A stretch of 51,407 nucleotides of DNA, taken from an uncultured SAR86 cluster bacterium. GTDB lineage: Bacteria; Pseudomonadota; Gammaproteobacteria; Magnimaribacterales; AG-339-G14. Under the pieces are notes generated by a model that was given only the letters and a program-made list of their open reading frames with translations, ran no database searches and was not told the DNA's origin. The stretch covers positions 1-51,407 of the forward strand of contig CACIUX010000007.1 in NCBI GenBank assembly GCA_902589965.1. The letters are read 5' to 3'. Shown here piece after piece: positions 2,380 to 22,626 of the stretch (the first letter of the stretch is position 1; each line of letters begins with the position of its first letter). Both the position numbers and the translations under genes were made by a program.

Positions 2380-4824
2380 ATGGCATTTGTACAAAAAATT
2401 TTACATTTTGTTGTCTACAGATCTTCAATCACTCTAGGGCTTGTTTTACTGATAACCTTCGGTCTAGCTTTTGGAGTTCAATATTTTCAGCTAGATGCAT
2501 CTTCGGATACCTTATTGTTAGAAGATGATGATGATCTTAAGTTTTACAGAGATACAAATAAAACTTTTGGAGGAGGGGGTGACTTTTTAGTAGTCACTTA
2601 TTCCCCTTTTGATGAATTATTCACGCAAGAAACCCTATCAAAAATAGAAGAATTATCTGATGAGTTAGAAGGACTTGAAGAAATTGATTCTGTTTTAAAC
2701 TTTCTTGACGTTCCCTTACTAGAAAGTCCAAGACAATCAATATCTGAAATTGCAAGTAATCCAATATCTCTAAGAAAAAAGAACGTTGATTTATCTTTAG
2801 CAAAAAAAGAATTCTCTCGTAATCCAGTCTATAGAGGCCTTTTGGTTAGTGAACAATTAGATACTGTAGCTTTACAAGCTATTCTCAAACCTGCCACTCA
2901 ATATGATTCCAAGATACAAGAAAGGTATCGAATTAATGAAGATTCTTCTCTAAGTGAAACTGAAAGACAATTACAACTTGATTTACTTTCTCAAGAAATC
3001 GATATCTTGCAGAAAGAAAATGTTGCCTCAAGAAAGAAGTTGGTTGCTGATACAAGAGCAATAATCTCTAAATATAAAAATGACGCTGAAATCTATCTTG
3101 GCGGCGGCCCAATGATATCCACAGACACAATACAATTTATTCTAAACGATATAGTTTTTTTTGGTTTTGCTGTGGGTCTACTATTTATAACTGTACTGGG
3201 CTTTATTTTTCGTCAAATTCGGTGGATTTTACTTCCTTTGATAAGCGCTTTTATATCTGCAATTGTGGTAACTGGCTTAATAAGCTTTGCAGGACTAAAA
3301 GTGACAGTTGTTTCTGCTAACTACATTGCTCTTCTGATGATCATTGCAATATCTTTGACAATGCATTTAGTCGTCAGATATCAGGAATTGCTATCTAAAA
3401 ACTCTGAGCTAAGTCAAAAGGAGATAGTGTTAATGGCTTCGACACAAATGTTTGTGCCGTGTCTTTATACAGCCCTAACTACAATAGTCGCATTTCTCTC
3501 ATTGATTGTCAGCGATATAAAACCTATTACAGATTTTGGTTTATTGATGGCTACCAGTATTGTCATCGCTTTCTTGGTGACTTTTTCCTTTTTTCCTGCA
3601 GTTATTTCTAAGTTACCCAAAAAAGAGAAAGATTATGTAGAAGATCAGTCCTCTGGAATAACATTATTTATATTCCAAATCTTTAAGAATTCCAGAATTA
3701 AAATTATTTTCTTTTCATTAATAGTTTTTGGATTATCTGTTCTTGGAATATCTATGCTATCTGTTGAGAATAAATTCATAGACTACTTCAAGTCTGATAC
3801 AGAAATATATCAAGGACTGTCTTTAATTGATGAGAAGCTGGGGGGAACGGCACCACTTGATTTGGTAATAAATGCTCCCGTAACAGAGCAGATTGATGAT
3901 GATTTTGAAGATTTTGATGATCCTTTTGGTATGGATGACTCAGCCAGCGGGTATTGGTTTACAAGTCAAAATTTAGATAGGCTCGAAGAAATTCACGACT
4001 ATTTAGAATCAAGAACTGAAATAGGAAAAGTTTTATCTGTATCAAGCGGAATAAAACTTGCTGAAATAGCTAACGGAAAAAAACTTAATGATCTTGAATT
4101 AGCTTTCATGAGAGAACTGTTACCGGAGGATATTAAAGAAAGTTTACTTAATTCGTATATCTCTGACGATGATAATCAAGTAAGGCTTCAAGCAAGAGTG
4201 AAAGAATCTCTAGATGGATTGAACAGAAAGAATCTCATCGATGAAATAAATTATGATTTAGAAAATAAATTTGGTCTTGATAATCAACAGTTTAGACTTA
4301 CAGGAATATCAGTTATTTATAATAATTTACTTCAGAGTCTTTTTTCATCTTTGATTGGCAGCGTGGGAATAGTTTTTATCGCAATCTTTGTCATGTTTTT
4401 ATTTCTTTTTAGGTCTGTCAGCCTAGCTTTGATTGGCATGGTTCCTAATTTTCTTGCAGCTGGTTTTGTCATGGGTTCCATAGGATTTTCTGGCGTTCCA
4501 TTGGATATTATGACCGTTACCGTTGCTGCGATTAGTATCGGGATTGGTGTTGATAATACGATTCATTACTTGCATAGGTTTAAAAGAGAATTTGATATAT
4601 CAAAAGACTACGAAGAATGCCTCAAGAATAGTCACACAACCATAGGAAGAGCGATGTTTTATACATCATCTACAATAGTCATTGGATTTTTAATCTTGTT
4701 GTCGTCAAATTTTAATCCTTCTGTATTCTTTGGAATTTTCACTTCATTAGCTATGATCATGGCAATTTTAGGTTCGTTGCTTTTATTGCCAACTCTTTTA
4801 TATTATCTAAAACCATTAAAGTAA
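2380..4824 (+). CDS. MMPL/RND superfamily exporter
   Basis: 814 residues with the duplicated RND layout: a helix at about 13-33, a large extracytoplasmic loop to about residue 240, five helices (about 250-405), a helix near 435-455, a second large loop, and a final block of five helices (about 655-810). Each helix block carries the small/acidic stretches typical of MMPL proteins, for example TVAAISIGIGVDNTIHY near residue 715-730. There is no adjacent membrane-fusion protein gene, as expected for MMPL or HpnN-type exporters, which often move lipids. The substrate is unknown. The CoA racemase gene starts two bases after the stop codon, so a lipid-related role is plausible but unproven. Confidence 0.82.
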   Translation: MAFVQKILHFVVYRSSITLGLVLLITFGLAFGVQYFQLDASSDTLLLEDDDDLKFYRDTNKTFGGGGDFLVVTYSPFDELFTQETLSKIEELSDELEGLEEIDSVLNFLDVPLLESPRQSISEIASNPISLRKKNVDLSLAKKEFSRNPVYRGLLVSEQLDTVALQAILKPATQYDSKIQERYRINEDSSLSETERQLQLDLLSQEIDILQKENVASRKKLVADTRAIISKYKNDAEIYLGGGPMISTDTIQFILNDIVFFGFAVGLLFITVLGFIFRQIRWILLPLISAFISAIVVTGLISFAGLKVTVVSANYIALLMIIAISLTMHLVVRYQELLSKNSELSQKEIVLMASTQMFVPCLYTALTTIVAFLSLIVSDIKPITDFGLLMATSIVIAFLVTFSFFPAVISKLPKKEKDYVEDQSSGITLFIFQIFKNSRIKIIFFSLIVFGLSVLGISMLSVENKFIDYFKSDTEIYQGLSLIDEKLGGTAPLDLVINAPVTEQIDDDFEDFDDPFGMDDSASGYWFTSQNLDRLEEIHDYLESRTEIGKVLSVSSGIKLAEIANGKKLNDLELAFMRELLPEDIKESLLNSYISDDDNQVRLQARVKESLDGLNRKNLIDEINYDLENKFGLDNQQFRLTGISVIYNNLLQSLFSSLIGSVGIVFIAIFVMFLFLFRSVSLALIGMVPNFLAAGFVMGSIGFSGVPLDIMTVTVAAISIGIGVDNTIHYLHRFKREFDISKDYEECLKNSHTTIGRAMFYTSSTIVIGFLILLSSNFNPSVFFGIFTSLAMIMAILGSLLLLPTLLYYLKPLK

Positions 4825-4826
4825 TT

Positions 4827-5960
4827 ATGAGCACGTTAAGAGGAACAAAAATTATTGAAATCGCTGGAATTGGTCCTGCTCCCTTTGCAGGAATGTTGTT
4901 AGCTGATATGGGAGCTGAGGTAATTTTAGTAGACCGTAAACAAAATTATGGCAAAGGTTCTAAATTTGAAGTATCTGGTCGAGGAAAAAAATCCATAGCT
5001 GTAGATTTAAAGTCCGAAAAGGGAATAGAGCTTGTTTTAAAGTTAGTAGAATCTGCCGATGCCTTGATAGAAGGATTTAGACCAGGGGTGATGGAAAGAT
5101 TAGGCTTAGGTCCAGAAATTTGTTTGCAAAAAAATGAAAATCTAATATTCGGCAGAATGACAGGCTGGGGTCAAACAGGCCCCTTAGCAAACGCAGCCGG
5201 ACACGATATCAATTACATATCGCTTGCTGGAGCTCTCGGCTCTACAGGAAGGAATGGGCAACCTCCTGCTCCTCCTTTAAATCTAATTGGAGACTTTGGA
5301 GGAGGTGGAATGTTATTAGCTCTTGGAATATGTGCTGCATTAGTTAACGTCAAAAACGGTGGGAAAGGACAAGTTATAGATGCCGCAATGACTGAAGGCA
5401 CTGCTCAGTTAATGTCTATGATTTATGGAATGAAAGCATCTGGATTTTGGACTGATCAACAACAAAGCAATCTTCTTGATGGAGCGACACATTTTTATGA
5501 TAGCTATGAATGTAAAGACGGCAAATTTGTTTCACTCGGATCAATTGAACCACAATTTTACTCAATCCTTTTAGATAAGATGGAATTAGATAGCAATGAA
5601 TTCTCAGAGCAAATGAATAGAGAAAAATGGAATGAATATAAAGCTAAATTTAAAAAAGTTTTTCTTTCTAAAACTCGCGATGAATGGTGTGAAATTATGG
5701 AAGGGACAGACATTTGTTTTGCACCCGTGCTTTCTATGGATGAAGCAATCAATCATCCCCACAATAAGGAAAGAAATGCTTTCAGCACTATAGATGAAGT
5801 TATCCAACCTTCACCAGCTCCTTTATTTTCAGAAACGCCCTCTAAAATCAAGCACCTTCAGAATCCTATTGGAGAAGATACAAAGGAAATATTAGATTCA
5901 ATAGGATGGACTGAGCAAATAGATGACCTTATATCATCAAACGTTATCGGTGGAGATTGA
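4827..5960 (+). CDS. mcr: Alpha-methylacyl-CoA racemase (CaiB/BaiF family)
   Basis: 377 residues, a family III CoA-transferase fold. The N-terminus RGTKIIEIAGIGPAPFAGML is characteristic of alpha-methylacyl-CoA racemases. The catalytic residues known from the mycobacterial racemase MCR fall at the same positions: His126 (in AGHDINY), Asp156 (in LIGDFGGGG) and Glu241 (in GSIEPQFY). The enzyme interconverts (R)- and (S)-2-methylacyl-CoA, which allows beta-oxidation of branched fatty acids or sterol and isoprenoid side chains. It starts two bases after the MMPL exporter. Its 3' end overlaps the convergent tatD by 17 bases. Confidence 0.9.
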   Translation: MSTLRGTKIIEIAGIGPAPFAGMLLADMGAEVILVDRKQNYGKGSKFEVSGRGKKSIAVDLKSEKGIELVLKLVESADALIEGFRPGVMERLGLGPEICLQKNENLIFGRMTGWGQTGPLANAAGHDINYISLAGALGSTGRNGQPPAPPLNLIGDFGGGGMLLALGICAALVNVKNGGKGQVIDAAMTEGTAQLMSMIYGMKASGFWTDQQQSNLLDGATHFYDSYECKDGKFVSLGSIEPQFYSILLDKMELDSNEFSEQMNREKWNEYKAKFKKVFLSKTRDEWCEIMEGTDICFAPVLSMDEAINHPHNKERNAFSTIDEVIQPSPAPLFSETPSKIKHLQNPIGEDTKEILDSIGWTEQIDDLISSNVIGGD

Positions 5961-6755: not shown

Positions 6756-7562
6756 ATGAATTCTAAAGAATTATTTGTGAGAGACACAACTGTAATTAAG
6801 AAATCAGATAATTTATTCATAGCAGAAGTTTCTGATAATTGGAGTATTGGTAACACAGCAAATGGAGGTTATTCAATGACTCTTGCTGCAAAAGCTATGT
6901 CGGAATTCTTAGAGCATAAAGATCCTTTGAGTATATCTGCACATTACCTTGATAGAGTTGATTTTGGAGCCACAGAACTTCATGTAACTCATCTCAGTAG
7001 CAGCAAGAGCTTATCTACAGCCAGAGTAGAATTGATTCAAAATAACAAAATAAAAATTATATTTATTGGCACATTTACAGACTTTTTTTTTAAAAATGAT
7101 TTGAATATTTATGAAAGAGATGTTCCTAGCTTCCCTGATTATGAATCATGTGAGGTTATTCCATACAAAGAGGGATTTAACCCTAAGTTAGATAAAAATA
7201 TTGAAAAAGCTTATTCTCAAGATTCTTTGTGGTGGAAAAAAGATAAAGAAAATTCGTCATCAACGTTGAATCTTTATATGTCTTGGCCTGAAAAGGATAA
7301 TATTGACTTATTTGATTTAGTGCTGTTCTTAGATGCGACTACTCCGCCAATTTATAATAAACTAGGGACTGTTGGTTGGGTTCCAACCATATCTTTGGCT
7401 TCTCATGTAAGAGGTCTTCCATCTGAAGGTCCCCTTAAAGTAATAGCCAAGACTGAATTTGTTACGGGTGGCTTTATGGAAGAAGATAGAGAAATTTGGG
7501 ATAGTTCAGGTAAGTTAGTTGGCCAGTCTAAACAAATGGCTAAACTAAGAATTAAAAAATAA
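6756..7562 (+). CDS. Acyl-CoA thioesterase-like protein (double hotdog, TesB/4HBT_3 type)
   Basis: 268 residues that look like two hotdog units in tandem, as in TesB-like thioesterases. Unit one contains the stretch ANGGYSMTLAAKAM followed by SISAHYLDRVDFG. Unit two contains LFDLVLFLDATTPP and ends with the strand-like GQSKQMAKLRIK. Such proteins hydrolyse acyl-CoA esters in the cytoplasm, but specificity cannot be read from the sequence. It is the first gene of a long same-strand run and lies 42 bases before the MoxR gene. Confidence 0.72.
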   Translation: MNSKELFVRDTTVIKKSDNLFIAEVSDNWSIGNTANGGYSMTLAAKAMSEFLEHKDPLSISAHYLDRVDFGATELHVTHLSSSKSLSTARVELIQNNKIKIIFIGTFTDFFFKNDLNIYERDVPSFPDYESCEVIPYKEGFNPKLDKNIEKAYSQDSLWWKKDKENSSSTLNLYMSWPEKDNIDLFDLVLFLDATTPPIYNKLGTVGWVPTISLASHVRGLPSEGPLKVIAKTEFVTGGFMEEDREIWDSSGKLVGQSKQMAKLRIKK

Positions 7563-12469: not shown

Positions 12470-13324
12470 ATGGAATATATAGATTCAAAATATTTTAGTT
12501 ACGCTGATCCTGATGATCCTTATCTAAAAAGGTTAATCATAAGAACCATTGAAAGTCTTTCAGGTCAACCTGAGCTCTATAAACTTTATAACGAATATCA
12601 AAGATCTCCTGAGTTATATAGAAATTTTTGGGAAGGAAGCGTTAAGAAGTTGAATTTGAATGTCAATTTTTCTGAAGAAGCTTTAAAACAGATACCCAAA
12701 GAAGGCCCGCTTGTAGTTGTTGCAAATCATCCTTTTGGTGTGTTGGATGGGTTGGTTATCTGTTGGTTAATGAGCCTAGTAAGAGATGATTTTAAAGTTC
12801 TAACTCATTCCTTATTACTTAGAGCGCCTGAGACTAAGGGATATCTCCTGCCAGTTGATTTTGCATTAACGAAAGAAGCAGTTAAGACAAATTTAGAAAC
12901 TAGAAAACTTTCTAGAGAATTTCTCTCGAACGGAGGATCAATTGTTATTTTTCCAAGCGGATGTGTGTCGACTAAGATGAAAATGAGCGAAAAAATTGCT
13001 TTTGATTGCGAGTGGAAGGTATTTACTTCTAGGCTAATTAAACAAACTGATGCAACTATAGTTCCTATTTATTTTCAAGGACAAAATTCTGAGTTATTTC
13101 ATTTAGCTAGTCGTTTTGGATTGATGTTAAGATCTGCACTACTATTCAGGGAAGTAAGAAGAAGAATGGGTACCGAAGTTCCCGTGACTATTGGTAAACC
13201 ATTGAAACTGAAAGATTTTGAGGAAAACATATCAAATCAAGATCTGGTAAAAAGTTTAAGAACTTTAACTTATTCTTTAGACCCCAATTTACCTCCAGAT
13301 CCTCCCATTGGCATGGAGTTATAA
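12470..13324 (+). CDS. Lysophospholipid acyltransferase family protein (PlsC-like)
   Basis: 284 residues. The acyltransferase block 1 reads ANHPFGVLDGL (near residue 85-95), the HxxxxxD variant common in the hemolysin/OlsA-like branch. A later block reads IVIFPSGCVS. These proteins transfer acyl chains to lysophospholipids or lyso-ornithine lipids at the inner membrane face. The gene starts 8 bases after tRNA-Ser, so it may share its transcript. No olsB-like partner is visible nearby, so the lipid substrate is open. Confidence 0.8.
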   Translation: MEYIDSKYFSYADPDDPYLKRLIIRTIESLSGQPELYKLYNEYQRSPELYRNFWEGSVKKLNLNVNFSEEALKQIPKEGPLVVVANHPFGVLDGLVICWLMSLVRDDFKVLTHSLLLRAPETKGYLLPVDFALTKEAVKTNLETRKLSREFLSNGGSIVIFPSGCVSTKMKMSEKIAFDCEWKVFTSRLIKQTDATIVPIYFQGQNSELFHLASRFGLMLRSALLFREVRRRMGTEVPVTIGKPLKLKDFEENISNQDLVKSLRTLTYSLDPNLPPDPPIGMEL

Positions 13325-13705: not shown

Positions 13706-15082
13706 ATGGCATTAGAACTAAATAGCAGTAAGCAACCCTTCGTAAAGATTAATTCCCCAAAATATAATCTTAAATTTTCTTTCGAAAGAAATTTTGATCT
13801 GACGGATCTAATGCTTTTTACTAAGGGCGATGAACCATATCAGCATTTTGCAAACCTACGAAATAACGCACCGGTATATTTTCATGAAACTGGTCCAGAA
13901 GATTCTGAACCTGGATTCTGGGTTTTAACAAAATATAAAGATATTGAGTTTGTATCAAAAAATCAGGAAATTTTTTCATCTCAGCTGGCTGGCGGAACTG
14001 CACTTACCCATGGTTTTGAACAACAAGATGATTTACCGTTATATAGATCAACCATGGATCATATGCTCAGTCTAGATGGTATGTTGCATTTGAGTATGCG
14101 AAATCCACACATGGCCTTTTTTAATCCGAAGTACGTATCTAATTTAAGAAAAAAAGTAGAGCTTAAAGTTGATCAGCTATTGGATCAAATTGCACCTTTG
14201 GGAAGATGTAATCTTGTTGAGACAGTTTCAGCAGAGGTCCCAATGTTTACTTTGTGTGAAATGTTAGGAGTCCCTGAAGAAGACAGACCCAAAATCATCG
14301 AATGGATGAAATTTCTTGAAATGGCTCAACTTATTGCTGCTACTCAAGCTGCAGAAAAAGGTGATATTGAATTTTCAGAAGAGCACACTCAAGAAGCTCC
14401 TGATCCTGCTTTAGTAGAAATGTTTACTAATATGGTCGCTGAGATGTTTGATTATGGTAGGACAATTCTAGAATCTAGGAGAAAGGATCCTAAAGATGAT
14501 CTTTTATCTGTGATTGCAAACATTGAAGTTGAAGGAGAAAAACTACCTAATGAGTATCTAGATGGTTCCTGGTTGTTAATAATTTTTGCAGGAAATGATA
14601 CGACAAGAAATTCTATCAGCGGAACGATGAATTTATTGTCTGAGAATCCTGACCAAAAAAACTTAGTTTTAAATGATAAAAGTCTTTTACCAAATATGGT
14701 TCATGAATCAATAAGAATGGTTTCTCCTGTAAGGTATATGAGAAGAACTACCAAATGCGATACTCAAATTGGAGATCAAGAGATTGGACCAAATGAAAAG
14801 GTTTCACTATGGTACGGCGCCGCTAATAGAGATCCAGAAATATTTACTAATCCCAATAAATTTGATGTAACTAGAGAGAATGCAAAAAAACATCTTGCCT
14901 TTGGTTACGGACGACACTTATGCCTAGGCAAACATACGGCTAACATGCAGTTAGAAGTCGTCTATGAAAAAATATTCTCAAGGTTTCCTGAAATGGAACA
15001 GGATGGAGAAATGATCTTAACCCCGAATAATTTTGTTAACGCCATTCAAGAAGTCCCGGTTAAGTTTAATCCAGAAAAATAG
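13706..15082 (+). CDS. Cytochrome P450
   Basis: 458 residues, soluble, no membrane anchor. The oxygen-binding I-helix is AGNDTTRN (about residue 295-302), the K-helix ExxR is ESIR (334-337), and the heme loop FGYGRHLCLG places the axial cysteine near residue 406. GNDTTRN occurs in bacterial CYP153-like and CYP125/142-like enzymes, which oxidise alkanes and sterol side chains respectively. I cannot separate these by eye. No ferredoxin gene is adjacent. Two membrane proteins of the steroid-reductase fold follow (9-base gap to the first), which gives a lipid or steroid context. No Shine-Dalgarno is visible; the tRNA ends 22 bases upstream. Confidence 0.93.
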   Translation: MALELNSSKQPFVKINSPKYNLKFSFERNFDLTDLMLFTKGDEPYQHFANLRNNAPVYFHETGPEDSEPGFWVLTKYKDIEFVSKNQEIFSSQLAGGTALTHGFEQQDDLPLYRSTMDHMLSLDGMLHLSMRNPHMAFFNPKYVSNLRKKVELKVDQLLDQIAPLGRCNLVETVSAEVPMFTLCEMLGVPEEDRPKIIEWMKFLEMAQLIAATQAAEKGDIEFSEEHTQEAPDPALVEMFTNMVAEMFDYGRTILESRRKDPKDDLLSVIANIEVEGEKLPNEYLDGSWLLIIFAGNDTTRNSISGTMNLLSENPDQKNLVLNDKSLLPNMVHESIRMVSPVRYMRRTTKCDTQIGDQEIGPNEKVSLWYGAANRDPEIFTNPNKFDVTRENAKKHLAFGYGRHLCLGKHTANMQLEVVYEKIFSRFPEMEQDGEMILTPNNFVNAIQEVPVKFNPEK

Positions 15083-15091
15083 TCCTTGATT

Positions 15092-15961
15092 ATGAAATCT
15101 CATCATATTTTATGTTTGTTTTGTTATTCGCTTAGCCTTGCAGCAGCAGCAGTTAGTCTAAGTGCAACCGATTCATTTGGATTGCATTTATGGGTTGATA
15201 TTGTCATTGCGCATGTTGTTAGCACTTTAGTAATTTTTCTATTCAGTACCTTCTATTCTAATTCTAGCTTATATGATCCTTACTGGTCTGTAGCGCCAGT
15301 TCCTATTTACTTTTTCATTGCTTTATCTGATGAAAGCGGGATTAACCTAGAACGTATTTTTCTGGTAGGTATTCCGATTAGTTACTGGGCATTCAGATTG
15401 ACTCATAATTGGTTGCGCACTTGGCCAGGTTTATCCAAAGAAGATTTTAGATATGTGAATCTGTACGAAACTTTTGGATCTTTCAAATGGTTCATAAATC
15501 TTTTTGGGATTCATCTTTTTCCTACTTTGACCGTAAATTTGTGTTTGTTCCCTTTATATTTTTATTTTATTGAAAACTCAGCAGATGTAAGTTCATTTGA
15601 TTATTTAATATGTTTGTTTACTCTCTCTATGGTTTTACTTGAACAGATATCCGATGAACAAATGCATATTTTTAAAGCGAATATTGAGAATAAAGGGAAA
15701 ACCATGAATGAGGGCTTATGGAAATATTCTCGTCATCCAAACTACCTTGGCGAAGTAGGTTTTTGGTTTGGATTATGTGGTTTTGGATTAATCGGTACAA
15801 ATGGTTCTGTTTTTCTTTTGATTTGCCCTATAGCTATGTTATTAATGTTTATGTTTGCATCTATTCCAATGATGGATAACAGAAGCCTAGAAAATAGACC
15901 TGATTATGCAGACTATATGAAAAAAACTTCCTCTTTAATGCTTTTTCCAAGCAAAAAATGA
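15092..15961 (+). CDS. DUF1295 family integral membrane protein (steroid 5-alpha-reductase fold)
   Basis: About 289 residues with roughly seven hydrophobic segments. The C-terminal part has the DUF1295 pattern: DEQMHIFK, NEGLWKYSRHPNYLGE and RPDYADYMKKTS, with the basic and His residues that bind the nicotinamide cofactor in related reductases and methyltransferases. I chose the ATG at 15092 rather than the in-frame TTG six bases earlier. The stop overlaps the next gene's ATG by four bases (ATGA). The family is known to be linked to fatty-acid or steroid reduction, but most members are uncharacterised. Confidence 0.85.
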   Translation: MKSHHILCLFCYSLSLAAAAVSLSATDSFGLHLWVDIVIAHVVSTLVIFLFSTFYSNSSLYDPYWSVAPVPIYFFIALSDESGINLERIFLVGIPISYWAFRLTHNWLRTWPGLSKEDFRYVNLYETFGSFKWFINLFGIHLFPTLTVNLCLFPLYFYFIENSADVSSFDYLICLFTLSMVLLEQISDEQMHIFKANIENKGKTMNEGLWKYSRHPNYLGEVGFWFGLCGFGLIGTNGSVFLLICPIAMLLMFMFASIPMMDNRSLENRPDYADYMKKTSSLMLFPSKK

Positions 15962-16704
15962 CGACTCATCAATTAGTAATGCTGGTTTGGAGCTTGGTAG
16001 GCCTGTCAGTATTTATTTATTTATTTTATCAAACAGCACCTTACGGAAGACATCAAGAAAAAGGGTGGGGCTTTGAAATAAGTTCTCGATGGGGTTGGAT
16101 CCTTATGGAATCTCCAGCTTTCTATTTAATGTTAATCTTCTTGATTTTGAATTTTTCAAATAGTTCAAATTTTTCAATTTTTGCTGCTATCTTATTTATG
16201 ATTCATTACTTTAACCGAAGTTTCATTTGGCCAATTAGAGCAAGAATAAAAAATAAGAGCATGCCAGTGACTATAGCTTTATCTGCTTTTTTATTTAATT
16301 TTGTTAATGTTTATATCCAAGGAACTTGGCTGTTTTATATATCAGACTATGCAACTAGCCATTTTTATTCTGTTCCATTTTTCTTGGGTCTTAGTCTTTT
16401 TTTTATTGGAATGTTTATAAACATTAAATCAGATGAAATTTTATTTTCTTTAAGAAAGAAAAATGAGGGATATCAAGTGCCAAAAGGGTTCATATATAAA
16501 TATGTATCTTGTCCGAATTATTTTGGTGAGTTTATAGAATGGTTAGGGTGGGCAATAATGACATTTAGCACAGCCGGTTTTGTATTTTTTTTCTGGACAG
16601 TAGCTAATTTACTTCCAAGAGCTGTTGCCAACCACAAATGGTACAAAGATAACTTTGAAGATTATCCTAAAGATAGAAAAGCTGTAATTCCTAAACTTTT
16701 ATAG
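15958..16704 (+). CDS. 3-oxo-5-alpha-steroid 4-dehydrogenase (steroid 5-alpha-reductase, SRD5A) homologue
   Basis: 248 residues with about six helices, collinear with human SRD5A1/2 along nearly the full length. Matching stretches include YGRHQEKGWGFEISSRWGW (29-47), HYFNRSFIWP, MFINIKSDEIL, YQVPKGFIYKYVSCPNYFGE, FIEWLGW, and the C-terminal NHKWYKDNFEDYPKDRKAVIP. These include the NADPH-binding Asn/Tyr/Glu/Trp/Arg positions known in the family. Eukaryotic enzymes reduce the delta-4 double bond of 3-oxo steroids in the ER membrane. Here it would sit in the inner membrane, coupled to the DUF1295 gene. The actual substrate in this bacterium is unknown. Confidence 0.88.
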   Translation: MTTHQLVMLVWSLVGLSVFIYLFYQTAPYGRHQEKGWGFEISSRWGWILMESPAFYLMLIFLILNFSNSSNFSIFAAILFMIHYFNRSFIWPIRARIKNKSMPVTIALSAFLFNFVNVYIQGTWLFYISDYATSHFYSVPFFLGLSLFFIGMFINIKSDEILFSLRKKNEGYQVPKGFIYKYVSCPNYFGEFIEWLGWAIMTFSTAGFVFFFWTVANLLPRAVANHKWYKDNFEDYPKDRKAVIPKLL

Positions 16705-16918: not shown

Positions 16919-17317
16919 ATGGATTTAACAACACAAGATATTTTGATTGTCTTATTTGTGTTTTTTGCAACACTTTCCCTTTTTTTTATTATTGATCCTA
17001 ATTTGATTAGCATTTTTCCCGGTGCGGGTTTTACCGAGCAGGAAATGTACGAGTGGAGATTACGAACAATCATTCCTTCGCTTTATCTTACAATTTGTTA
17101 TTTTATTTACAGATTTTTTGCAGGAAAAAATCCAACCTCAACTTTGTGGCCCATTTATATTGTGATAACTTCATTTGCAATTACCCAGTTTATAGCTTTT
17201 TTCTTTATGGGAATTTCAATAACTCAAGTCGTCTGCTTTCTAATAACAATCGCCACAGCTTTTGCTCTTAGAATGGCTGACTTAAAAAGAAGCAGGCAAA
17301 TAATAGGTAGATTCTAG
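16919..17317 (+). CDS. Hypothetical four-helix membrane protein
   Basis: 132 residues with four predicted membrane helices (about 8-28, 48-66, 76-97, 98-117) and a basic C-terminus. A strong GGAGGG ribosome site precedes the start. A TATAAT at 16893-16898 upstream could serve as the -10 element of a promoter. I do not recognise the family. It lies two bases before the quinone-oxidoreductase-like gene, so they are likely cotranscribed. Confidence 0.7.
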   Translation: MDLTTQDILIVLFVFFATLSLFFIIDPNLISIFPGAGFTEQEMYEWRLRTIIPSLYLTICYFIYRFFAGKNPTSTLWPIYIVITSFAITQFIAFFFMGISITQVVCFLITIATAFALRMADLKRSRQIIGRF

Positions 17318-21384: not shown

Positions 21385-21999
21385 TTAGTTTAATGGATTA
21401 GAATCTGGCTGAAACTCATAGTAACCGTCAACTGGTATCATTAAGTGAGCATAAGGAGTTCCTTTAAACATTTGGTAAGGTGCTCCTGTTGTGAAATCTG
21501 TAGGGAAATTTTCTATAGTTTTTGTGTTTTTCGGCATCAACATTAAGTGAGGCCCTGACTCGATAAAGTGTCCCATCATTTTAGCTTTATCGTGATCACC
21601 TCCATAGAAGCTTGAATTCATATTATCTTCTCCCATATCACCATTTAGCATCCAAATATAGGCATCTCTTTCCATATTAGGTTTACCGCCAGTCATATAA
21701 GCTTCAGCCCATTTGAAGCCTTCTTCATCGGCACAAAGGGTATTTCCGTGTTGAGGAGTTTCAAATCCGCCTTCAGGCATTTCTAATGTAGCGGTGCAGG
21801 TCCATCCATTAGATCCTTCTCGAATCACTTTACCGTCTCCTCCAACAATTGTTGCAAATTCCCCTATAAAATCAGGTGCGGCCTTACTGTAAGCCCAAAT
21901 TTGCCACTCATCAGAATCATGAGACACGTTAGGCTCATCAGATGTTGAACTTGAACAAGAAATAAGAACTATAAAAAGTATGCTTAATAAATATTTCAT
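21385..21999 (-). CDS. Putative lipoprotein, paralogue A, unknown function
   Basis: 204 residues. The signal peptide ends in LISC with Cys15 as the lipidation site (lipobox). The mature part shares with the next gene: EWQIWAYSKAAPDFIG, the GGDGK/REGSNGWTC block, MERDAYIWMLNGD, FIESGPHLM, DFTTGAPY and AHLMIPV. The function is unknown. Only two cysteines apart from the lipidated one are visible (in WTC and LCAD), and they could form a disulfide. Its ATG lies 15 bases after the stop of paralogue B, so both are read from one transcript starting upstream of B. Confidence 0.8.
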   Translation of the reverse strand: MKYLLSILFIVLISCSSSTSDEPNVSHDSDEWQIWAYSKAAPDFIGEFATIVGGDGKVIREGSNGWTCTATLEMPEGGFETPQHGNTLCADEEGFKWAEAYMTGGKPNMERDAYIWMLNGDMGEDNMNSSFYGGDHDKAKMMGHFIESGPHLMLMPKNTKTIENFPTDFTTGAPYQMFKGTPYAHLMIPVDGYYEFQPDSNPLN

Positions 22000-22014
22000 A
22001 ATTACTCCGTTAAT

Positions 22015-22626
22015 TTAGTTTGAAGGAGACGATTCAGGCTGATACTTATAGTAATCTCCTACAGGTACCATTAAATGAGCCCATTTTGAATCAGGAAACA
22101 TAACGTAAGGTTCTCCTCGAGTAAAATCAGAAGTGAAGTTCTTTAAAGTATCAGGATCCTTTGGTACAACCATAAAGTGTGGACCAGATTCAATAAATTG
22201 TCCTGGTGTAGAATCACTTTTCGAAAGCACTCCTGGAACCAAATTATCTTCACCAACGTCTCCGTGTAGCATCCACATATAGCCATCTCTATCCATAATA
22301 GGGTCAACGTTATTCATAAAGGCTGCCATCCATTTCATTGCCTCAGTATCAGAACAGGTAGGCATCGCTTGATGCGGATCATCCCAACCAACTGAAGGAA
22401 AAGGCCTTGGATTTCCTGGCATACAAGTCCAACCGTTTGATCCTTCTCTTAAAATAGAACCATCACCACCAATGATCGTTGCATAGTCTCCAATATAACT
22501 TGGAGCAGCAGTGGAATAAGCCCAAATTTGCCATTCTGCAGAATTATGTGGAGCATTAGGCTCATCACTTACAGACTTAGAACAAGAGAGCACAAAAACG
22601 AAAAACATTAACGCTAAATATTTCAT
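22015..22626 (-). CDS. Putative lipoprotein, paralogue B, unknown function
   Basis: 203 residues. The signal peptide ends in LSCS, so Cys15 would be lipidated. It is a full-length paralogue of the downstream gene, with the same blocks: EWQIWAYSTAAPSYIG, GGDGSILREGSNGWTC, MDRDGYMWMLHGD, FIESGPHFM, DFTRGEPY and AHLMVPV. The family occurs as conserved hypotheticals in marine bacteria as far as I recall, without a known role. An AAGGAGAAT ribosome site precedes the start. This is the promoter-proximal gene of the pair. Confidence 0.8.
   Translation of the reverse strand: MKYLALMFFVFVLSCSKSVSDEPNAPHNSAEWQIWAYSTAAPSYIGDYATIIGGDGSILREGSNGWTCMPGNPRPFPSVGWDDPHQAMPTCSDTEAMKWMAAFMNNVDPIMDRDGYMWMLHGDVGEDNLVPGVLSKSDSTPGQFIESGPHFMVVPKDPDTLKNFTSDFTRGEPYVMFPDSKWAHLMVPVGDYYKYQPESSPSN

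Follow-up and report, generated by a model that had tools for sequence, protein, structure and literature searches.

A predicted SRD5A-family reductase in SAR86 bacteria, linked to a CYP125-like P450 in one genus and mutually exclusive with the ring-opening marker KshA

The window analysed here, a stretch of 51,407 nucleotides from an uncultured SAR86 cluster bacterium (assembly GCA_902589965.1, contig CACIUX010000007.1), belongs, as contig C7, to a genome of 1.12 Mb and 86% completeness. At positions 13,706 to 16,704 it carries three intact, co-directional open reading frames (ORFs) that encode a cytochrome P450, a DUF1295 membrane protein and a homologue of the steroid 5-alpha-reductases (SRD5A). 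An earlier note on this DNA had read the trio as a possible steroid- or sterol-modifying cluster. The enzyme families it named stand, the cluster does not extend beyond a single genus, and a steroid substrate, although well supported, is what we infer from the families. Overall, we believe that the trio serves a sterol metabolism without ring cleavage, in which the side chain is oxidized and the nucleus is 5-alpha-reduced, a reading we hold with a little more belief than doubt. The main interest lies in the SRD5A family itself, in its 3-beta-hydroxysteroid dehydrogenase (3-beta-HSD)-type partners, and in its mutual exclusion with ring opening as marked by KshA.

By sequence, the third gene product is a genuine member of the SRD5A family. 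It scores 169.5 bits against Pfam Steroid_dh (cut-off 22.6) and is alignable end to end with the solved SRD5As, which bears out the resemblance over nearly the whole length that had been seen by eye, the YGRH, NYFGE, EW and YPK..IP motifs all being present. A phmmer search of the PDB returned three matches only, PbSRD5A (8.5e-57), human SRD5A2 (8.5e-39) and a TECR-type enzyme (6.5e-11), and identity is 41% to PbSRD5A and 36% to human SRD5A1 and SRD5A2 (the SRD5A1 sequence being provisional). The AlphaFold model, made with marine homologues as input (predicted local distance difference test, pLDDT, 91), shares the seven-transmembrane fold of PbSRD5A (PDB 7c83; PMC7815742) and SRD5A2, with TM-scores of 0.90 to 7c83 and 0.86 to 7bw1; the structure search gave nothing else below E 0.001. 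In a tree that included PbSRD5A, SRD5A2 and TECR, plus provisional sequences of SRD5A1 and DET2, the characterized SRD5As are nested among the bacterial and archaeal members of this family, and TECR lies far outside on a very long branch; the window protein (15958-16704) falls within the SRD5A family, and not with TECR or the methyltransferases. The plant enzyme DET2, in its provisional sequence, is 43% identical to the window protein, and also has Met for the Gln of the Q-E-Y motif, reading MESP in place of QELP as the marine bacterial family does. DET2 has its own role in the brassinosteroid pathway, and it groups with PbSRD5A and the human enzymes, not inside the SAR86 clade. In identity, the window protein is closer to DET2, so far as its provisional sequence shows, and to PbSRD5A than to the human enzymes. 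No SRD5A relative was found in viral contigs.

Mapped onto PbSRD5A, Glu54 and Tyr87 become Glu51 and Tyr84, the equivalents of human E57 and Y91, and most NADPH contacts are kept. Both residues are invariant over 29 marine homologues drawn from Pseudomonadota, Bacteroidota, Fidelibacterota, archaeal bins and others, and Met50, which precedes Glu51, is near-invariant. PbSRD5A reduces progesterone, and human SRD5A2 needs the E57/Y91 pair for activity (PMC7815742, PMC7591894).

The distribution of the family was compared with that of KshA_C across 116 SAR86-order genomes, each at least 80% complete, from 21 genera. SRD5A is present in 63 genomes from 13 genera and KshA_C in 19 from 5, with an overlap of 0; the hypergeometric p for this exclusion is 4e-8 by genome and about 0.003 by genus, genera not being independent. 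Families f2 and f3 each hold both states. Of the 116 genomes, 89 carry the P450, among them 18 of the 19 that are KshA-positive, and it is thus common to SRD5A and KshA bearers; in one of the latter (G059) it lies about 5 kb from a KshA-family gene, with DUF1295 about 18 kb from the P450. No KshA_C match was found in the window's own genome (86% complete) or in eight genus-mates, and as judged by this marker the 9,10-seco route of ring degradation would be lacking in the host genus. That these cells degrade steroids fully by means of unrecognized ring-opening enzymes, with SRD5A on a side branch, strikes us as very improbable: some SAR86 relatives do possess the 9,10-seco pathway (PMC4810484), but KshA_C occurs in 0 of 9 genomes of the genus and never together with SRD5A.

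The genes that surround SRD5A elsewhere provide a second line of evidence. Named genomes, when scanned, yielded 80 loci together with more than 570 candidates, and context was examined in 101 loci. Among the matches listed, the hosts are mostly marine: SAR86, OCS116, PS1, SAR92, Flavobacteriaceae, Neomarinimicrobiota and bins labelled Euryarchaeota. In 46 of the 101 loci, the gene directly next to SRD5A encodes an extended short-chain dehydrogenase/reductase (SDR) that matches Pfam 3Beta_HSD. A single conserved SDR partner was considered and rejected, as the single-linkage cluster actually held two subfamilies whose mutual likeness is only about 23-25%. The first, DFR-like, is convergent with SRD5A and overlaps it by 4-8 bp (SAR86 family f3, SAR92); the second has a high Pfam 3Beta_HSD score and is encoded on the SRD5A strand, mostly overlapping SRD5A by a short stretch (Bacteroidota, Neomarinimicrobiota, archaeal bins). 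Recruitment of this kind of partner on two separate occasions is good evidence for a hydroxy/keto-steroid-type oxidoreductase as the working partner of SRD5A.

Several of these neighbourhoods have features of their own. Same-strand pairs of SRD5A and 3Beta_HSD-type SDR (for example L124:7013-8736, L131:9021-10741, L146:8982-10738 and L149:8996-10744) occur in Flavobacteriaceae/Bacteroidota and Euryarchaeota-labelled bins, and in most of the Bacteroidota ones MMPL and LolA-like genes come next. In SAR86 family f3 (L046:8251-12994 and about 31 similar loci) SRD5A sits between the convergent DFR-like SDR and a GMC oxidoreductase, and the loci continue with a small gene that is rhodanese-like by eye and a patatin-like lipase resembling, below cut-off, the phospholipases of CBASS (cyclic-oligonucleotide-based anti-phage signalling systems). 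A role of the GMC oxidoreductase as a cholesterol oxidase was considered and is not supported, since it matches choline-dehydrogenase and alcohol-oxidase types instead. In family f2, acyl-CoA dehydrogenases flank SRD5A. In OCS116 alphaproteobacteria (L117:11475-13594, L132) a P450, an SDR and a distant PlsC-like acyltransferase adjoin SRD5A, so that P450 and SRD5A are neighbours here a second time; this P450, at only 25-26% identity, is not the same enzyme as that of the window. Loci L145, L087 and L103 are binned as Euryarchaeota, Opitutia and Flavobacteriaceae; in L145 and L087 the neighbourhoods are of SAR86 type, and their bin labels are probably wrong.

Such gene orders also bear on a biosynthetic alternative, in which algal sterols would be turned into 5-alpha-saturated, acylated or exported lipids for the cell's own membrane. 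The SRD5A-SDR-MMPL-LolA order of Bacteroidota would fit it, with MMPL near the SRD5A-SDR pair in archaeal bins too, as would the acyltransferase that stands upstream of the P450 in the host family and near SRD5A in SAR92 and OCS116. We nonetheless consider it improbable, for the nearby beta-oxidation, racemase-type and thioesterase genes and the published emphasis on beta-oxidation in SAR86 point to catabolism, and the window's MMPL shares only about 24% identity with those linked to SRD5A.

The P450 has intact motifs: AGNDTT in the I-helix (residue 295), ESIR (334) and the heme loop FGYGRHLCLG (399). Its best PDB match, both by sequence (278 bits versus 203 for the next) and by profile (409 versus 290), is CYP125MRCA, a reconstructed ancestor of the CYP125 sterol C26-monooxygenases, whereas extant CYP125s match it no better than several other families do, with CYP124, 126, 268, 153, 142 and the extant CYP125s all scoring near one another against its profile. 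It is therefore nearest to the sterol C26-hydroxylase clan and appears CYP125-like, not CYP125 proper; the proposal of a sterol side-chain hydroxylase-type P450 holds up at the level of the clan, and its substrate would be predicted from that placement. Apparent in-frame stops in the P450 of the ring-degrading genus g17 (G070-G081; L191-L200) were set aside, since the genes are intact, the alignment having run on beyond the natural stop codon that follows EMPVKF.

The DUF1295 protein (PF06966, 144.8 bits; curated cut-off 20.4) is less easily placed. Its profile matches the SRD5A alignment with hhalign at 96.2% probability over the NADPH-binding half. For its model (pLDDT 86) Foldseek gave no significant match, and the best VIA-align match is the delta14-sterol reductase MaSR1 (4quv; Z 13.6 over 254 residues), with ICMT (Z 9.3) and SRD5A2 also in the top five; sequence identity to MaSR1 and ICMT is only 12% and 10%. 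It is a separate family that, by its model, shares the wider sterol-reductase/ICMT superfamily fold. The Pfam families foreseen for the two membrane proteins were confirmed, and "two steroid-reductase-fold membrane proteins" is a fair description, with the correction that DUF1295 has the wider fold and is a family of its own. A second, distant DUF1295 is nearly universal across the SAR86 order. In two KshA-positive genomes (L162:3365-19787; L164:8389-19707) DUF1295 lies beside genes that by eye resemble F420 biosynthesis genes (FbiC, CofC, CofD), with flavoproteins that look KstD-like nearby.

What the trio might do can be outlined as follows, its substrates, direction, products and pathway being our proposal. 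Consider a cell that takes up algal sterols. The P450 would hydroxylate the side chain at its terminal carbon in the fashion of CYP125, feeding beta-oxidation, and the racemase-type, acyl-CoA and SCP2-thiolase/ChsH2-type proteins would shorten it; the host genome does encode a ChsH2-type OB protein beside an SCP2-type thiolase. SRD5A, a putative membrane-bound, NADPH-dependent 5-alpha-reductase of 3-oxo-delta4 steroids, would then saturate the A/B rings, perhaps with an SDR; by analogy with solved homologues, Glu51 and Tyr84 would polarize the C3 ketone and NADPH would deliver hydride to C5. The weakest step concerns DUF1295, which may take part as another membrane reductase of the sterol-reductase superfamily, with lipids of the same class as its substrates. 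Since no KshA was found in the genome, the nucleus is proposed to be saturated and not opened. Such a scheme would explain published findings, in which most SAR86 (Magnimaribacterales) lineages have cyp125 and genes for side-chain beta-oxidation but none for ring cleavage (PMC11582366) and a subset degrades the rings (PMC4810484). The main text of PMC11582366 makes no mention of a 5-alpha-reductase, and the SRD5A/KshA exclusion is a result of the present analysis. A broader version is possible but doubtful: most SAR86 lineages would be ring-sparing, trimming the side chain, saturating the nucleus with a DET2-type 5-alpha-reductase and a 3-beta-HSD-type partner and discarding the 5-alpha remnant, whereas KshA-bearing sister lineages would open the rings, so that the two represent mutually exclusive ecological strategies.

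A number of observations weigh against the ring-sparing reading. Within the reductase, Gln53 of PbSRD5A is Met50, so that E51 and Y84 of the Q-E-Y motif are present and the Q is replaced, and the NADPH contact H230 is Asn225. The change Q56A/L is reported to be damaging in human SRD5A2 (PMC7815742), whose Gln56 is not conserved here and whose R114 corresponds to S109; F94 of PbSRD5A is W91. Either Met50 is tolerated as an alternative, as the example of DET2 suggests, or it signals a different substrate, and if the Met of DET2 is a true precedent a strict Gln may not define the family. The P450 is 35.7% identical to CYP125MRCA, itself an ancestral reconstruction, and so lies below the usual CYP family line of 40%, and it occurs without SRD5A in some genomes (genus g4). 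An SDR 48% identical to the linked DFR-like SDR is encoded in the host genome, but in another operon and unlinked to SRD5A, and no dedicated enzyme forming a delta4-3-ketone was identified there with an incomplete list of steroid genes. A small number of evolutionary events may underlie the KshA exclusion. Free stanols, finally, were absent from a Baltic water column although present in sediment (PMC7292411), and free 5-alpha-stanol is therefore probably not a large end product in that water; the literature searched for 5-alpha-stanols in sea water otherwise bears on the question only indirectly.

The same substitutions invite a different substrate altogether. The fold could have been turned to a different enone, and the enzymes would then act on an isoprenoid or polyketide-like lipid that is not a steroid, for example a polyprenal, a relative of carotenoids or hopanoids, or a terpenoid from algae. 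The replacement of Gln by Met and the loss of steroid-pocket residues such as human R114 are in keeping with this, HpnA and OleD types are also among the matches of the linked SDRs, and the PlsC-like acyltransferase and MMPL neighbours would fit general lipid export. However, the protein retains the catalytic Glu/Tyr pair and almost every NADPH contact, characterized steroid reductases branch inside this very family, and the P450 is closest to sterol hydroxylases; we thus regard a non-steroid substrate as unlikely and continue to favour a sterol.

The linkage of the trio also counts against the reading, in that it is confined to one genus. There it is firm: the trio is present in 9 of 9 genomes, with order and ATGA overlap kept at up to 8% SRD5A protein divergence. 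Outside that genus the genes do not stay together, which is part of what the earlier note had named as an outcome that would count against its reading. In the sister genus g3 the P450 and DUF1295 remain paired and SRD5A lies elsewhere, beside a homologue of the window's 132-aa gene, and the trio genes are apart in genera g2 and g4 as well as in families f2 and f3; the "cluster" is therefore a genus-level arrangement of widespread SAR86 parts. A block running from an alpha-methylacyl-CoA racemase (AMACR) through TatD, thioesterase, MoxR, VWA, ABC and acyltransferase genes to the P450 is syntenic in g2, and thus the P450 is probably ancestral in this block and SRD5A a newcomer. That synteny lends some substance to the suggestion that the MMPL exporter and AMACR fit sterol metabolism, but both are broad families and add little. 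A chance neighbourhood, formed when SRD5A moved beside P450-DUF1295 and joining separate pathways, would account for the single-genus linkage and for the g3 SRD5A that kept the same downstream gene elsewhere. We think it improbable too, given the persistence of overlap and order in the genus and the sterol-active members in the superfamilies of all three proteins. Because the same trio recurs in 9 of 9 genomes and dN/dS (nonsynonymous to synonymous rates, versus two genus-mates) is about 0.02-0.06 for each gene, the observation itself is more than chance.

SAR86 are among the most abundant surface-ocean bacteria, and the fate of the sterol nucleus is a puzzle of their published genomes (PMC11582366), for which an SRD5A never found together with KshA provides an answer that can be tested. 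If ring sparing is true, SRD5A bearers could supply saturated, steroid-like matter to sea water. In this context, a human drug-target family and a plant hormone enzyme would be tied to a family widespread in marine bacteria and, by bin labels, archaea.

Within the locus (Table 1), the reported adjacency and overlap were confirmed. The DUF1295 frame opens with TTG at 15086, with an alternative ATG at 15092, leaving 3 to 9 bases after the P450 stop (15082), and its own stop codon shares the ATGA of 15958-15961 with the start of SRD5A. Scans for sigma-70 promoters and terminators gave sites no more numerous than in shuffles.

Table 1. Features of the window around the trio
Feature	Coordinates	Strand	Evidence
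Cytochrome P450, CYP125-like	13706..15082	+	Pfam p450 2.3e-26; best PDB match CYP125MRCA
DUF1295 membrane protein, predicted sterol-reductase/ICMT superfamily fold	15086..15961	+	Pfam DUF1295 3.9e-42
SRD5A-family steroid 5-alpha-reductase homologue, 248 aa	15958..16704	+	Pfam Steroid_dh 6.2e-50
tRNA-Arg (acg), directly upstream of P450	13607..13683	+	ARAGORN
csrA, upstream of tRNA-Arg and P450	13410..13574	+	Pfam CsrA 3.2e-23
PlsC/OlsF-GlsA-like acyltransferase	12470..13324	+	Pfam Acyltransf_2; NCBIfam OlsF-like below cut-off
Putative membrane protein, 132 aa, no Pfam family	16919..17317	+	adjoins SRD5A in genera g1, g3
MMPL/RND-type exporter	2380..4824	+	MMPL 7.5e-32; Pfam Sterol-sensing 9.7e-7
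CoA-transferase family III protein (AMACR type per earlier note)	4827..5960	+	Pfam CoA_transf_3 1.5e-82; syntenic in g2
Acyl-CoA thioesterase	6756..7562	+	Pfam 4HBT_3 / 4HBT_3C

The host's own family, f1, comprises 4 genera within the genomes sampled and would fit the Magnimaribacteraceae of PMC11582366. The acyltransferase is the upstream neighbour of the P450 in 3 genera of the family (synteny in L167, L168), and the exporter adjoins AMACR in genus g2 as well. Two adjacent paralogous lipoprotein-like ORFs of 203-204 aa lie on the minus strand at 21385-22626; for the one that was scanned (22015-22626) no Pfam family was found. The putative membrane protein of 132-133 aa stands downstream of SRD5A in genera g1 and g3 (window 16919-17317; L037:10064-10462), and its homologues form neighbour cluster 18, found in 17 loci. 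In other SAR86 families, further small proteins, a few of them DUF4345-like or PsiE-like, are encoded near the P450 and DUF1295.

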